A DNA stretch of 25,216 nucleotides, from positions 1 through 25,216 of the IMG/VR virus record IMGVR_UViG_3300042924_006764, one strand, 5' to 3'. Every line of letters starts with the position of its first letter. Positions within the stretch are counted from its first letter, which is position 1. Below are positions 18,157 through 25,216 of this stretch, piece by piece. Source of the DNA: a virus. The notes below the pieces were generated by a model. That model worked only from the letters and a program-made list of their open reading frames with translations. It ran no database searches and had not been told where the DNA came from. Both the position numbers and the translations under genes were made by a program.

Positions 18157-18624
18157 TTACATTTTCAGTTTTTTGAGTTCCTCTCGGATTTCAATTGCTC
18201 TTTCAAAGTTATGATCTGAAATCACTTGTTTGAGTTCATTCTCGAGTTTTTCAATTTCCTCTTGAGAGTTTTCAAGTTTCTTCATTCTATCACGAAGGTG
18301 GATTGCCAGTTCGTAATCTTCATTTTCGATTGCTCGTTGGAGTTCAGATTTGAGTCTGTCAGCACTGACCTCTTGTTTTTTATTAGATTTGAACATATTA
18401 GTCATCATATCGTCATCAAAACCTGAAGAACGAACAAAGCTGGTAATTAAAATTTTACCATCATCAGATGTGAATGTCTCTTTATTCCATTCACCATTTT
18501 TATCTTTTCCCTTTTCCACATTATTTTTTCCGTGGATACCAAATCGTCCACCAAATGGATGATTACCGAACATATTATTTAGTTCATTGAACAGGTCATC
18601 GAAAGAATCACTTTTTCCAAACAT
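18157..18624 (-). CDS. UVR-motif protein, McsA-like adaptor candidate
   Basis: A 155-residue protein. The first 35 residues are Phe/Gly/Asn-rich (FNELNNMFGNHPFGGRFG), followed by a short beta-rich stretch. Two UVR-type helical hairpins follow: residues 91-117 (LKSELQRAIENEDYELAIHLRDRMKKLE) and 129-153 (NELKQVISDHNFERAIEIREELKKL). UVR motifs occur in UvrB, UvrC, the middle region of ClpC and the ClpC adaptor McsA. The zinc-binding CxxC pairs of McsA are absent, so it is not a standard McsA. It is divergent from a ClpC-type gene whose own UVR-like hairpin has the same pattern (DYEQAAEIRDKEKKL), and the two promoters abut. A role as substrate adaptor or regulator of that ATPase is likely but inferred. 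Confidence 0.82.
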   Translation of the reverse strand: MFGKSDSFDDLFNELNNMFGNHPFGGRFGIHGKNNVEKGKDKNGEWNKETFTSDDGKILITSFVRSSGFDDDMMTNMFKSNKKQEVSADRLKSELQRAIENEDYELAIHLRDRMKKLENSQEEIEKLENELKQVISDHNFERAIEIREELKKLKM

Positions 18625-21054: not shown

Positions 21055-21645
21055 TTATTCTTCTCTTAATAACCAAGTTGTTAAGATGTATTTATCGTTG
21101 GATACCGGTACATGACCTCTGTGAACATATGGCCAAGGTGCTGGCCAAACAATAAATGTTCCTTTAGTGGGTTTTACCATCAAACTTTGATGTAGGAACT
21201 CTGTTTCTCCACCCTCTTCGACATCATTGAGGTAAAACATAACGGCGAAGAGTCTGTTATAAAACTCACTATATTCACCCTCGGTGTGAAAAGACTTAAA
21301 GTGACCCACACCTTTTTCATATCTTTGTAATTGCCACACAGGGTAGTATGTTCCCTTACCAAAAAGATATTCGTGAGTGTTAAACTCATCTGTAGTTCTA
21401 AATCTACGAACATAAAGATCGATCTTTTCGTTAGCTGCATCAACAACCTGATTAACCAATTCTTCAAGTTCAGGAACTTTCATAATGTCAAAATCGGTAG
21501 TATCTTTGAATCTTTTATCTAAACCACTGGCAGTTATCCCTTGGTGATGATAATCTTCGTATTCGTGAAACGCCTCAATAAGACGATCACATAACTCCTC
21601 AGAAAGAGTCCCAGGGTAAACTCCGATTGTATCCTTGACGTTCAT
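21055..21645 (-). CDS. 2-oxoglutarate/Fe(II) dioxygenase, prolyl-4-hydroxylase type
   Basis: A 196-residue protein with the double-stranded beta-helix layout of P4H-type dioxygenases. WQLQRYEKGVGHFKSFHTEGE contains the first iron ligands, His120 and apparently Glu122 (HxE instead of the usual HxD). LFAVMFYLNDVEEGGETEF is the central core. PYVHRGHVPVSNDKYILTTWLL gives the distal His (His175) and the 2OG-binding basic residue (Lys185). Such enzymes hydroxylate protein, nucleic-acid or small-molecule substrates; phage copies are common, but substrates are mostly unknown. The start (MNVKDTIGVYPG) overlaps the upstream peptidase by 47 bases. It belongs to the operon driven from 22829. Confidence 0.88.
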   Translation of the reverse strand: MNVKDTIGVYPGTLSEELCDRLIEAFHEYEDYHHQGITASGLDKRFKDTTDFDIMKVPELEELVNQVVDAANEKIDLYVRRFRTTDEFNTHEYLFGKGTYYPVWQLQRYEKGVGHFKSFHTEGEYSEFYNRLFAVMFYLNDVEEGGETEFLHQSLMVKPTKGTFIVWPAPWPYVHRGHVPVSNDKYILTTWLLREE

Positions 21646-22432
21646 ATTCGTGTTTTGTATATCCTAATCTGTTTATCATCTCGTGTGCAGTGTGGATGGA
21701 ATTTTGTAAATCCTCCACTACAACATACTCATGCATTGTATGATAATTATAATAACCACAAGAAAAATTTATACAGGAAAAATCAAATTTTATTTTCAAT
21801 TGTGAAACATCCGTATAAGGATGGATTTGAAATTCATGATGGGCAAACTTTTCTGTCAAAACTTCATCAGCAATTCGGAAAAATTCCGAATTACGATCAA
21901 ATAATCTAATACCTGAACAAACTTCAGTCACCATGTAATTACTTGGGGCATCCAATTGGATGGCATAAGCAACATCCGAGAAAAACTCGGGACTTGCCTT
22001 ACGAGATCCCAAGCATCCAGTCTCTTCTGAAACAAAGAATGCCGCTTTTAAATGTGGTAAATCACGGAGAGATACCAACGCACCGTAAACACCACATTTA
22101 TCATCACCACCAATACCAACGGGTTTACCATCAGGATTATACCCTTTCAGAGACAACTTACCTTGTTTTTGACGATTAGGTAAAATTTCCTCGTGAACCA
22201 TAATTTCATCTTGGAAATGATGGACCGTATCAGTATGAGCCACCATACAAGGGTAGAGTTTATCCTCATACCCTTGAGTGGTCTTAGTGGCATATACATT
22301 CATCATCTCATCAACCACATAAGGAATACCCTCTTTATCCAACCAATCAGAGATGTATTGGACCATAAGTTCCTCATTATAAGTTGCGGTACGAACTGAT
22401 AACAGTTCCTTCAAAAATTCTAAGTCGTTCAT
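21599..22432 (-). CDS. M20-family metallopeptidase, peptidase T-like, without lid domain
   Basis: A 277-residue di-zinc peptidase. VAHTDTVHH gives His66 and Asp68, GIGGDDKCGV the bridging Asp (110 or 111), FVSEETGCLGS the catalytic Glu136 and ligand Glu137, QLDAPSN Asp161, and YHTMHEYV the last His (near 234). PYTDVSQLKIKF and NFSCGYYNYHTMHE resemble peptidase T and related exopeptidases. Usual family length is near 400 residues; the inserted dimerisation or lid domain is replaced by a short segment (about 170-210). Di-zinc ligands appear complete, so it is probably active on short peptides in the cytoplasm. It begins with a 4-base ATGA overlap with the cREC gene and overlaps the oxygenase start by 47 bases. 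It could finish the breakdown of peptides released by proteolysis (inference). Confidence 0.88.
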   Translation of the reverse strand: MNDLEFLKELLSVRTATYNEELMVQYISDWLDKEGIPYVVDEMMNVYATKTTQGYEDKLYPCMVAHTDTVHHFQDEIMVHEEILPNRQKQGKLSLKGYNPDGKPVGIGGDDKCGVYGALVSLRDLPHLKAAFFVSEETGCLGSRKASPEFFSDVAYAIQLDAPSNYMVTEVCSGIRLFDRNSEFFRIADEVLTEKFAHHEFQIHPYTDVSQLKIKFDFSCINFSCGYYNYHTMHEYVVVEDLQNSIHTAHEMINRLGYTKHEYERQGYNRSLPWDSF

Positions 22433-22782
22433 TTTCCGATGGATTTACGATAGTTTGAAAGAATGGAATTGATGTTTTGACGACCAACAGGATTTGCACT
22501 TTGAATTGACCATTTGGGAACATCGATATCCCCATTATCCATACAGTAATTTACCAACCATTTTGCGGCATCATGACCAGTACCAAGTTCATCATCACCC
22601 AAATCATGATCAAAGAAGATTTCATCAGGGAGACCAAACTCACGGATATAATCAACAAACTCAGGAAATTCTTTTACCCAAACAATCTCATCAACTTTGG
22701 AGTCGTACTCAGGGATATATTGATCCCTCCATACACTCATATTCGGATCCCGAATATCGTCTAACCACAAATATGTTTTCAT
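22429..22782 (-). CDS. Receiver-like cREC domain protein (predicted cyclic-phosphate processing)
   Basis: A 117-residue single-domain protein. MKTYLWLDDIRDP holds the acidic pair of a receiver-like fold (Asp8-Asp9); EIFFDHDLGDDELGTGHDAAKWLV gives the central Asp motif (HDLG) and a TGxDAAKW helix; WSIQSANPVGRQNI carries the SANPVG loop. This combination matches the cyclic-phosphate processing receiver family (cREC_REC), predicted from comparative genomics to act on cyclic-phosphate products such as those from ADP-ribose or RNA processing. The biochemical role is not proven. It is the first gene of an operon with the M20 peptidase and oxygenase, close behind a strong host-type promoter with a leader of about 10 bases. 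Confidence 0.78.
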   Translation of the reverse strand: MKTYLWLDDIRDPNMSVWRDQYIPEYDSKVDEIVWVKEFPEFVDYIREFGLPDEIFFDHDLGDDELGTGHDAAKWLVNYCMDNGDIDVPKWSIQSANPVGRQNINSILSNYRKSIGK

Positions 22783-22798
22783 GTTGATAAGTTTTCAA

Positions 22799-22829
22799 CA
22801 AAGATACGAAAATATTTGTGAATATCAAA
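22799..22829 (-). promoter_or_regulatory. Perfect Bacteroidota-type promoter for the accessory operon
   Basis: On the minus strand TTTG (22826-22829), exactly 19 bases, then TATCTTTG (22799-22806), matching TTTG-N19-TAnnTTTG. It overlaps the stop of the upstream 349-residue gene, and the start would lie near 22792. Confidence 0.85.
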
Positions 22830-23874
22830 ATAGTCTATAAGTTGTCAACAAGTTTCTAACACCCTCAATTGGTAACCTGAATCTTTCAGATGTATACTCA
22901 CCCGGTTTGTAAACTCTGATATCCACTTTTTCTGTTTCGTTGTCAAATCTTTCAATTGTGAATGAATCATACTGATTTCCATCAGGAAATTTTTTCATTT
23001 GACCAGGTGTTACATTAAAATCTTGTAATAATTTGTAATACTTTTGGTCCGATGTAAAATCTCTACCTTCAAACTCTTCTTCTACCGCATCCAAAAGTTT
23101 ATCAATATACCTGTAGATTGGTTCTGGATCATAATCCGTACCCATTTCCCAAAAACCATCTTCGTAATTGGGGTAATGTGTGTGATTGAATATTACGTCC
23201 TTAATTATATCAGTAAGACTTTGATCACTATCATCATCTCCGTATTTTTCAATAAAGTTCATCAATTGAGATAAACTTACCAAAAACGTTTCTCTGGTTG
23301 TAACAGGTACCATTTGAATAAATTTTCTTGGGACGGGTATTGAATAGTCTTTATATAGTTCCTGTTCTATCTCTTCCCTAATTTTGTCGTTTCTTTCTTC
23401 CACAACACTATCAATAATATCTGAAACATATCTATCAAACTCCTGATCCAAAAAAGTTATAATTTTTTTCGCACATTCTGAGTCACCGTCTAATTCACAT
23501 TTACCGTAGTTTATTTCAGGTATCATGTTGGACATCAATTTTAATAACCGTTTTTTCTGATCATCTTTAAACCAATAAAATCCATAACCTTCTTCCCAAT
23601 CGCCGATCATAGAGTCGTTATCAATGAAATCATTATAACCACCATATTTAGAAGTTACATTATTGATAACCCATCGGGTATTGTCATCCAAACCAAATAA
23701 ATCCCAATAATCCTCAAACTCCAAAAGAGCACCCTTCCCTTTTACTTCTAGAATCTCAGGTATTTCATCTATAAGATCTTGGGCAGAAATTTTACCTTCC
23801 AAATACCCCCTTATAACCTCAACCATTTTGTTAGGTCTTTTATCGTCTTCGAGTAAAAACTTAGATAGTTTCAT
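22825..23874 (-). CDS. Unknown acidic protein with capsid-targeting-like N-terminus
   Basis: ATG 23874 (MKLSKFLLEDDKRPNK) gives 349 residues; a GTG 18 bases upstream lies in the late-type motif and is rejected. The protein is acidic and mostly helical, with Trp/Tyr-rich stretches (DNDSMIGDWEEGYGFYWFKDD; EDGFWEMGTDYDPEP) and a beta-rich C-terminus (EKVDIRVYKPGEYTSERFRLP). No family is recognised. The first nine residues, MKLSKFLLE, resemble the short peptides that direct T4 internal proteins into the prohead (MKTYQEFIAE in IPIII) and end in a hydrophobic-x-Glu cleavage-type site. A late-type motif ends 6 bases before the ATG. An internal head protein is therefore possible. Confidence 0.75.
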   Translation of the reverse strand: MKLSKFLLEDDKRPNKMVEVIRGYLEGKISAQDLIDEIPEILEVKGKGALLEFEDYWDLFGLDDNTRWVINNVTSKYGGYNDFIDNDSMIGDWEEGYGFYWFKDDQKKRLLKLMSNMIPEINYGKCELDGDSECAKKIITFLDQEFDRYVSDIIDSVVEERNDKIREEIEQELYKDYSIPVPRKFIQMVPVTTRETFLVSLSQLMNFIEKYGDDDSDQSLTDIIKDVIFNHTHYPNYEDGFWEMGTDYDPEPIYRYIDKLLDAVEEEFEGRDFTSDQKYYKLLQDFNVTPGQMKKFPDGNQYDSFTIERFDNETEKVDIRVYKPGEYTSERFRLPIEGVRNLLTTYRLF

Positions 23875-23880
23875 ATTTTT

Positions 23881-23888
23881 TATAAATA
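23881..23888 (-). promoter_or_regulatory. TATTTATA late-promoter-like motif
   Basis: TATTTATA on the minus strand, 6 bases before the ATG at 23874. Confidence 0.5.
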
Positions 23889-23913
23889 CCACGAAGAATT
23901 CAATTTTTTGTTG

Positions 23914-23921
23914 TATATTTG
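23914..23921 (+). promoter_or_regulatory. TAnnTTTG -7 box upstream of the exported-protein gene
   Basis: TATATTTG ends 4 bases before the ATG at 23926. No clear TTTG is found 19 bases upstream, so only half of the promoter consensus is present. If real, the transcript would be nearly leaderless. Confidence 0.4.
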
Positions 23922-23925
23922 AAAT

Positions 23926-24384
23926 ATGAAAAATGTATTGACCACAATTGTCCTTATGTTCACATTCACGATGAACTCACAAGTTATCAAATACCCAATT
24001 GATACCATTTATTACTTTGAGTTTCCCCCTCACATGGATATTGAAACCGCTCGACAGTGGAATAAGGTCGATTACATCAACTCAGGGACTTTCTTAGATA
24101 CCAACGACCTATATTGGGTGATAGACCTAACCAAAGGTAAACTAACGGTCTACGGGACAAAATACAAGATCAAAAACACTTACTTTCCCGACTCCACAAT
24201 CATGGTTTTGGATTACAAACTCAAAGGTCGAGATAAGTACAACCGACGAATCATGTTCTACAAAGATGAATACGGATACGAGAAGATGTTATTCACCATC
24301 GAACCCAAAACAAACAAGAAACAAAAAAACCCCGAACCAAACAAAGGTGGTTGGGGTTATGTAAAACAAGAAGGGGGTCAATGA
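23926..24384 (+). CDS. Small exported protein of unknown function
   Basis: A 152-residue protein with an N-terminal signal peptide (MKNVLTTIVLMFTFTMNSQ): a short basic start, hydrophobic core and polar cut region near residue 17-20. The mature part is beta-rich and aromatic (IDTIYYFEFPPH; NDLYWVIDLTKGKLTVYGTKYK) with a Lys/Asn/Gly tail (NKKQKNPEPNKGGWGYVKQEGG). No family is recognised. It is one of only three plus-strand protein genes in the window and lies between two minus-strand genes. Its stop codon lies within the stem of the downstream terminator. A periplasmic or outer-membrane function during infection, or host-surface modification, is possible; this is inference. Confidence 0.75.
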   Translation: MKNVLTTIVLMFTFTMNSQVIKYPIDTIYYFEFPPHMDIETARQWNKVDYINSGTFLDTNDLYWVIDLTKGKLTVYGTKYKIKNTYFPDSTIMVLDYKLKGRDKYNRRIMFYKDEYGYEKMLFTIEPKTNKKQKNPEPNKGGWGYVKQEGGQ

Positions 24385-24395
24385 CCCCCTTTTTT
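24371..24395 (+). terminator. Terminator overlapping the stop of the exported-protein gene
   Basis: A stem GGGGGTC with GACCCCC extended by AA/TT, loop AAT, then six T. The TGA stop at 24382-24384 lies inside the hairpin. The mirrored run could also terminate the converging minus-strand gene at 24397. Confidence 0.9.
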
Positions 24396-24396
24396 A

Positions 24397-24939
24397 TTAT
24401 ACTTTTTTCATCTGATCTTGGGTAATTCCCCATAAGACATTGTAGAAATTAGGATAGTATTCCAAAACTTCAGTGGTAATATCCCTACCATCACCATCCA
24501 TAATTGGGAAACCCTTAGTAAACCATCTTTCATCGACATAGTTATTTTTAGCTACAGTTCTCAAACCTGATCTTACCATATCAACAATCTTATCACTAGC
24601 AATATCCTGTGGTGAATTAGATGGGAATGACTTAGCAGTCAATGGATCAACCTCAAATCTTCTTTTACCTGGTTGTAAACCCTTACCTTTTAGGTATGCC
24701 ATCGCTCTAACCAAAGAGTCCATACCTCTAAATGGATCGACAAAAACCATGAGGGTAGAATCATCCAAATTCTTCAAACTTTTTGTACTTACAGGTGCGT
24801 CCATTTGCTCTTTAGTTTCTCTTTTCATTTTGAAACCATTAACTTTCGTACCAAACGCAACACCGGTACTTTGTTCCTGTATAACTTTCCTGATAATTTT
24901 CTCCAAATCAGATTCTGCTAATCTTATAACTTTCTTCAT
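24397..24939 (-). CDS. Unknown protein with conserved-looking N-terminal targeting peptide
   Basis: A 180-residue protein beginning MKKVIRLAESDLEKIIRKVIQEQ. This amphipathic basic helix, ending in I-Q-E at residues 20-22, has the look of a cleavable capsid-targeting peptide. The remaining part is compact (STLMVFVDPFRGMDSLVRAMAYLKGKG; ERWFTKGFPIMDGDGRDITTEVLEYYP) and not assigned to a family. A TATTTATA motif lies 15 bases upstream. If the leader is a targeting signal, the protein would be packaged in the head and could enter the host with the DNA. That idea rests on analogy with T4 internal proteins only. Confidence 0.75.
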   Translation of the reverse strand: MKKVIRLAESDLEKIIRKVIQEQSTGVAFGTKVNGFKMKRETKEQMDAPVSTKSLKNLDDSTLMVFVDPFRGMDSLVRAMAYLKGKGLQPGKRRFEVDPLTAKSFPSNSPQDIASDKIVDMVRSGLRTVAKNNYVDERWFTKGFPIMDGDGRDITTEVLEYYPNFYNVLWGITQDQMKKV

Positions 24940-24954
24940 ATAAAATATTTTCTA

Positions 24955-24962
24955 TATAAATA
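24955..24962 (-). promoter_or_regulatory. TATTTATA late-promoter-like motif
   Basis: TATTTATA on the minus strand, 15 bases before the ATG at 24939. Its edge is one base from the -33 element of the opposite RNA promoter. Confidence 0.5.
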
Positions 24963-24963
24963 C

Positions 24964-24994
24964 TTTGTCATTAGAAAAAAAGTATTTATCTTTG
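24964..24994 (+). promoter_or_regulatory. Perfect Bacteroidota-type promoter for the RNA locus
   Basis: TTTG (24964-24967), 19 bases, TATCTTTG (24987-24994), an exact match to TTTG-N19-TAnnTTTG. The expected start near 24999-25001 coincides with the 5' arm of the RNA's closing stem. No equally good promoter lies just before the tmRNA. Confidence 0.85.
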
Positions 24995-24996
24995 TA

Positions 24997-25085
24997 AGAG
25001 AAATCACGGGTGGCTCCCTTAATAGTTAAGGCTGACCTTAAGCATCTGACCAAAAGTCTATACAGGGGGCGAAAGTGATTTCTTT
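24997..25085 (+). ncRNA. Structured RNA of unknown family between promoter and tmRNA
   Basis: An approximately 89-base element closed by an 11-bp stem: AGAAATCAC (24999-25007) pairs with GTGATTTCT (25075-25083), extended by one G-U and one A-U pair. Inside, GCTCCC (25013-25018) can pair with GGGGGC (25065-25070, one G-U), TTAAGG (25026-25031) with CCTTAA (25036-25041) across a CTGA loop, and GAC with GTC around CAAAA. A second CCTTAA at 25017-25022 competes for the same TTAAGG and would break the GCTCCC helix, so two folds are possible. It does not fit tRNA, 4.5S, 6S or the hammerhead core, nor a riboswitch class I can recall. It may be an independent sRNA or a leader controlling the tmRNA. 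Confidence 0.6.
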
Positions 25086-25100
25086 GTTCTTTGAAAATAT

Positions 25101-25216
25101 GGGGGTGACCGGTATTGATTGGCAGGGTTAGTCATACGGGGCATGCGGTGAGATGTTTCCTATCACCTTAATCTATGGATGCAACAATCAAACGGCGAAA
25201 CTTTCGCAACACTCGA
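25101..25216 (+). ncRNA. ssrA: Transfer-messenger RNA (tmRNA), 5' part; 3' end beyond window
   Basis: The run starts GGGGGTGACCGGTATTGATTGG, the acceptor-stem and D-loop-like start of tmRNA, and contains the conserved GGGGCATGC. A hairpin GGTGA (25147-25151) with TCACC (25163-25167) fits the first pseudoknot, and TTAATCTATGGATG follows as in Bacteroidota tmRNAs. The resume region AAACGGCGAA matches that of Bacteroides tmRNA, so the tag reads Gly-Glu-Thr-Phe-Ala-Thr-Leu and continues past the edge. tmRNA with SmpB frees stalled ribosomes and marks unfinished proteins for degradation. The tag differs from the Bacteroides form GENNYALAA after its first two residues. No SmpB gene is seen in the window, so host SmpB would be needed. 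Confidence 0.93.

Follow-up and report, generated by a model that had tools for sequence, protein, structure and literature searches.

The window analysed here is the whole of one IMG/VR record (25,216 bp). Its gene content, which includes a terminase, an S77 prohead protease and other head genes, is that of a T4-like myovirus fragment, and its end falls inside a tmRNA gene. Two ORFs on the minus strand (positions 1-1269 and 1333-2862) are long and carry low-complexity repeats, a collagen-like GTSGSSG repeat among them; they probably encode tail-fibre or adhesin-like proteins. The main features of the tmRNA region are the following.

18157..18624, minus strand: protein carrying two UVR motifs, encoded divergently from clpC (Pfam UVR, 6e-14; found in 52 of 109 phage loci)
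18813..20807, plus strand: ClpC-like AAA+ unfoldase without the N domain, with an IGF ClpP-docking loop, a KYRG pore loop and an M domain
21599..22432, minus strand: M20-peptidase-like gene in the clpC-tmRNA interval, conserved in 100 of 109 loci
24964..24994, plus strand: Bacteroidota-type promoter by sequence motif, TTTG (24964-24967), 19 nt, TATCTTTG (24987-24994)
25000..25084, plus strand: structured RNA leader immediately upstream of the tmRNA (z -3.24; beside the tmRNA in 27 loci)
25101..25216, plus strand: tmRNA, first 116 nt; the 411-nt gene runs past the contig end and is complete in the contig L002
25101..25107, plus strand: 5′ strand of the acceptor stem, GGGGGTG, pairing with CACCTCC in L002; the third pair is G-U, an alanine identity element
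25147..25167, plus strand: PK1 region, stem GGTGA (25147-25151) / TCACC (25163-25167), from RNAfold of the full tmRNA
25194..25216, plus strand: start of the tag reading frame, resume site at 25194, GETFATL; the full tag in sister contigs is GETFATLEALGLIQAEEVTVA

On the window alone, the tmRNA was called by neither ARAGORN nor Rfam because the gene is truncated by the contig end. The initial annotation had recognized the 5′ part of a Bacteroidota-type phage tmRNA at 25101-25216, and this was borne out by the acceptor strand, PK1 and the resume frame, all of which can be read there. The tag starts with the codons GGC GAA ACT TTC GCA ACA CTC, giving the GETFATL that had been proposed. The annotation had also advised reading past position 25216 for the full tag and the 3′ acceptor, and the contig L002 (IMGVR 3300042891_001994) supplied both in complete form. 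L002 corresponds to window positions 21380-25216 at 100% identity over 3,837 bp. It contains the complete 411-nt gene at 1086-1496 on its minus strand, which scores 81.1 bits against the tmRNA covariance model RF00023 (gathering score 47), whereas the truncated window copy gives no match. Seven related loci likewise exceed the gathering threshold. The L002 tmRNA has all seven acceptor pairs including G3-U70, a discriminator A, CCA and an intact T arm, and a terminator-like hairpin lies 3′ of it. Its tag is 21 aa long, with the C-terminal end EEVTVA, and is followed by a stop. A disrupted 3′ half, the outcome that would have spoken against the annotation, is excluded for the lineage by the intact acceptor pairing and T arm. 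Given the identical 3.8-kb overlap, the window phage’s own tmRNA would be expected to have the same 3′ half as that of L002.

The anatomy of the tmRNA is conserved across relatives. Searching with a pattern of 28 bases that covers the tmRNA start retrieved 13 viral contigs, which together with the window form a first set of 14. A search of IMG/VR with the phage clpC yielded 80 loci, most of them with a tmRNA downstream. ARAGORN misses complete members of the group (e.g., L002 and L007), and nhmmer with explicit acceptor and tag checks was used instead. All seven acceptor pairs were found in 58 of 62 relatives, the third pair is G-U in 59, and the discriminator is A in every one. Two of the exceptions are intron-interrupted genes and the remainder reflect a wrong T loop chosen by the script. 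Pairs 5-7 of the acceptor stem covary among the 62 relatives, the variants being GGGGGTG/CACCTCC, GGGGATG/CATCTCC, GGGGTAG/CTACTCC, GGGGAAG/CTTCTCC and GGGGGTA/TACCTCC. Group I introns lie in the tmRNA T loop of L009 and L010 (Rfam RF00028) and were recognized there by eye in L057, L103 and L106. The T-loop introns of the phage tmRNAs apparently occupy two different subsites; four T-loop subsites have been described in the tmRNA database (PMC11915505).

The tags of these tmRNAs form a family of 21-22 aa with the consensus G[NED][TV]xxK[LM]xxxGLxxxxxVxVA. There are 51 distinct tags at the DNA level and 45 as peptides. Thirty-eight of the peptides are 21 aa long; all of these have G1, G11 and L12, and K6 and A21 are each found in 35. 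Three more tags, read by eye, start with D (DNVINKLSAVGLIRTEENISVA, DATFAKMATLGLTREAVVVGA and DNTLSKMATLGLTREAVVVAA). The phage tags mostly end in VA, AA, TA, GA or TI, and they share an internal conserved core, KMxxLGL. The pN/pS ratio of the tag is 0.60 in frame vs. 0.84 and 1.00 when the frame is shifted, and its codon-position entropies are 0.85/0.61/1.27. Purifying selection on the tag frame is moderate, with substitutions near saturation. The family was also recovered independently of clpC. At least 118 IMG/VR loci match a degenerate DNA pattern that encodes G-N-x-[LF]-x-K-M-x-x-x-G-L; among the matches listed, 115 have a tag-family reading frame, and three without one were set aside as chance. 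The tmRNA profile is matched as well (nhmmer) by 112 of the 115 listed, and two of the reading frames run off the contig end. These loci overlap with the clpC-based set, some contigs being common to both. Acceptor covariation with a constant G3-U70, together with selection on the tag frame, argues for lasting tmRNA function, and it is highly probable that the tmRNA works and that its private tag is under selection.

The tags of potential hosts are different. In an even draw of 118 Bacteroidota genomes, tmRNA matches were found in 114. Seventy-five Bacteroidota loci, mostly from this draw, were examined, and ARAGORN found a tmRNA in 59. The sampled Bacteroidota tags are 9 or 10 aa long in 95 of 98 ARAGORN calls and end in LAA or MAA, with three odd calls; the commonest in the sample are GENNYALAA and ADDYSYAMAA. 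The most frequent tag length in the tmRNA database is 10 aa (PMC11915505). The phage tag falls outside this host-type ssrA pattern in both length and ending, and no tag like it was found among the ARAGORN tags of the 75 Bacteroidota loci examined. The tag had been described as non-host-like from its first residues, and at 21 aa against 9-10 aa in hosts this description holds; a host-identical tag is excluded for the lineage. The tag is unlike any in the sampled Bacteroidota and is kept across a large lineage of uncultured viruses. The first three residues of the host tags GNTQYAMAA, GETNYAMAA and GETSYAMAA (GNT or GET) are common to phage tags, which would fit a host origin with later extension. 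The tmRNA 5′-end pattern had zero matches in 84,980 bacterial and archaeal genomes, i.e., no exact copy is present there. A second tmRNA-like match in the Bacteroidota sample (genome G141, 49 bits) was set aside, as it had no ARAGORN call and no recognizable tag.

The tag is linked to a gene for an unfoldase. The ClpC of the window aligns to residues 149-794 of Staphylococcus aureus ClpC, and the N domain is taken to be missing because the alignment starts only at residue 149. It has two AAA+ modules, an M domain and a ClpP loop but not the N-terminal adaptor-binding domain. The docking loop is [IVL]GF wherever it was read, and KYRG is present in 86 of 86. ClpC is encoded in all 14 contigs of the first set, the window included. 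It was also found in 84 of the 115 tag-found loci listed, and 16 of 20 of the remaining contigs, when searched whole, encode it; several of the tag-found loci without clpC are short. The tmRNA lies ~2.5-7 kb downstream of the phage clpC, and the gene order in syntenic loci is clpC, M20-like gene, tmRNA. Two further genes between clpC and the tmRNA of the window, encoding a 2OG-Fe(II) oxygenase (21055-21645, minus strand) and a cREC receiver-like protein (22429-22782, minus strand), are found mainly in the closest relatives. UVR motifs occur in McsA, a partner of ClpC, and the divergently encoded UVR protein is therefore a possible ClpC adaptor.

The partners of this unfoldase and of the tmRNA are encoded in part of the lineage. 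ClpP is encoded in 19 of 39 larger relatives. Of 20 long relatives, 14 have it; the computed distances place it ~17-27 kb past the tmRNA, and 13 aligned copies have a full-length domain with conserved Ser/His/Asp. In L018 (G014), whose tag peptide is identical to GETFATLEALGLIQAEEVTVA, ClpP follows ~20 kb further on. ClpP is absent within the window, which ends inside the tmRNA, so any ClpP would lie beyond it. In a second set of 20 records chosen by tag, five encode ClpP and 15 lack it. Two of those 15 are as long as 273 and 304 kb and have GNVLNKME... tags, so a private ClpP cannot be a fixed requirement. SmpB was found in none of the first 14 contigs and in 2 of 20 relatives searched. Full-length phage SmpB is encoded in L319 and L320 (G021 and G024), and the 309-kb genome G021 also has the tmRNA, ClpC and ClpP. 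Phage ClpP and SmpB had no match in the sampled host loci, which contain neither gene.

The region upstream of the tmRNA points to the host group. TANNTTTG occurs within 170 nt upstream in 130 of 137 distinct tmRNA upstreams vs. 24 expected in shuffles, and a -33 element accompanies it in 124 vs. 3.5 in shuffles. The leader between promoter and tmRNA is near-invariant where present and consists of a P1 helix (GAAATCAC/GTGATTTC) with inner hairpins; 4 of its 25 pairs show compensatory change. No convincing Rfam family was found for 25000-25084, and some close relatives, L011 among them, lack the leader. The leader is possibly a riboswitch-like or processing element. The phage ClpP starts with MTPYILEERE, which we take to be similar to Bacteroidota ClpP. 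Based on this start and the Bacteroidota-type promoter, the viruses probably infect Bacteroidota.

Phage tmRNAs are already known. Published accounts describe ten phages with a tmRNA, including the mycobacteriophage Bxz1 group and Bacillus phage G (PMC4131195), tmRNA in 402 phage genomes (2.3%) together with the two-piece tmRNA of Melnitz (PMC9004378), and huge phages with a tmRNA, some with SmpB too (PMC7162821). The tmRNA described here resembles the bacterial Bacteroidota-type tmRNA (RF00023) in its G3-U70 acceptor, T arm, PK1, resume frame with stop and length of ~411 nt. It differs in being phage-encoded and in its tag of 21-22 aa ending in V-x-V-A rather than 9-10 aa ending in LAA or MAA. 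It also differs from the Melnitz tmRNA, which is permuted and of alphaproteobacterial type (PMC9004378). As far as the available portions of these accounts go, no lineage-wide private tag linked to ClpC/ClpP is described for other phage tmRNAs (PMC4131195, PMC9004378, PMC7162821), and no report of the tag family or of such a tag was found in the open-access literature. Among GenBank phages (50,697 records), nothing was similar to the window tmRNA beyond the T arm, and the closest ClpC is ~56% identical to the phage ClpC. The huge phages LR756508 and Lak-C1 were considered as members and rejected, as their tmRNA matches are not hit by a model of the phage tag-family tmRNA. The match in LR756508.1 (92434-92880, L332; 72 bits) has a long open frame, ...NNADYESAGFTAEDFAQMDGESLYHGSERKPAAV, which may be an unusual long tag. 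Like Staphylococcus and Bacillus ClpC (PDB 6em8, 3j3s), the phage ClpC has two AAA+ domains, an M domain, an [IVL]GF loop and pore loops; unlike them it lacks the N-terminal adaptor domain, the alignments beginning at residues 145-149. Phage steering of ClpCP has been described for SPO1, whose Gp53 acts as an adaptor of the host ClpCP (PMC6873191). SPO1 modifies a host enzyme, whereas the present phages encode their own unfoldase and tagging RNA and, in part of the lineage, their own peptidase.

We favor a phage-run trans-translation whose tag marks proteins for degradation through a phage ClpC-ClpP route (probability about 0.55). The tmRNA would be transcribed during infection from the Bacteroidota-type promoter and charged with alanine by the host AlaRS. 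It would enter stalled ribosomes with SmpB, usually the host’s and sometimes the phage’s own, and extend the unfinished protein by alanine and the 21-22 aa tag specific to the phage. This tag would then most likely serve as a degron for the N-domain-less ClpC, docked on the phage’s own ClpP in part of the lineage and otherwise on that of the host. Rescue and disposal by the phage would run parallel to, and separate from, the host tag pathway. The most likely purpose would be to clear ribosomes and their products while takeover breaks mRNAs, by a route under phage control. Parts of this reading differ in strength. That the tag is a degradation signal is likely, and the chances that phage ClpC reads it are about even. 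The initial annotation had left open whether a different tag would send proteins to a different protease or spare them from it; the former is more plausible because ClpC is linked at nearly all loci examined and ClpP in part of the lineage. The linkage of tag and ClpC may reflect common descent, as the phages share synteny. A stricter version, in which a private degron is read only by phage ClpC (with phage or host ClpP and perhaps aided by the UVR protein) and is insulated from host ssrA/ClpX, is tentative. In E. coli, tag variants ending in LVA are unstable. Tags ending in VA can thus be degrons, so the phage enzyme need not be the only reader of the phage tag, and host ClpXP might also recognize it.

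Such host reading is central to a simpler explanation, which we consider unlikely: the phage tmRNA merely adds rescue capacity during mRNA breakage, host ClpXP/ClpAP reads its tag, and ClpC serves other roles (e.g., disaggregation or degrading host proteins). The small hydrophobic residues at the tag end are like those of ordinary degrons, ClpP is not encoded throughout the lineage, and few of the searched records have SmpB, so that the host's SmpB is assumed to serve. This explanation predicts a host-like tag, however, and the phage tag is about twice the sampled host length and conserved in the lineage. The absence of the canonical LAA ending and the conserved KMxxLGL core would also suit a tag that shields proteins from host proteases or routes them elsewhere, e.g., to assembly or sequestration. 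The terminal Ala of 35 of 38 21-aa peptides, as in degrons, and the ClpP-docking unfoldase encoded alongside make this improbable. Slightly less probable still is a tmRNA captured once from a host, with limited function, that stays near clpC by block inheritance. It would account for the conserved gene order across loci and for host tags with the same first residues (GNTQYAMAA, GETNYAMAA), but it sits poorly with acceptor covariation around a constant G3-U70 and with selection on the tag frame.

Roles suggested for phage tmRNAs include maintaining host machinery and recycling host proteins (PMC9004378) and sensing the state of the host (PMC7162821). A new long degron with a matching protease may be of use for engineering. 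The private tag and ClpC bring the role of a phage tmRNA within reach of a direct test that needs two or three purified proteins and a reporter. A host-differing tag kept beside a ClpP-docking unfoldase bears directly on the purpose of phage tmRNAs.
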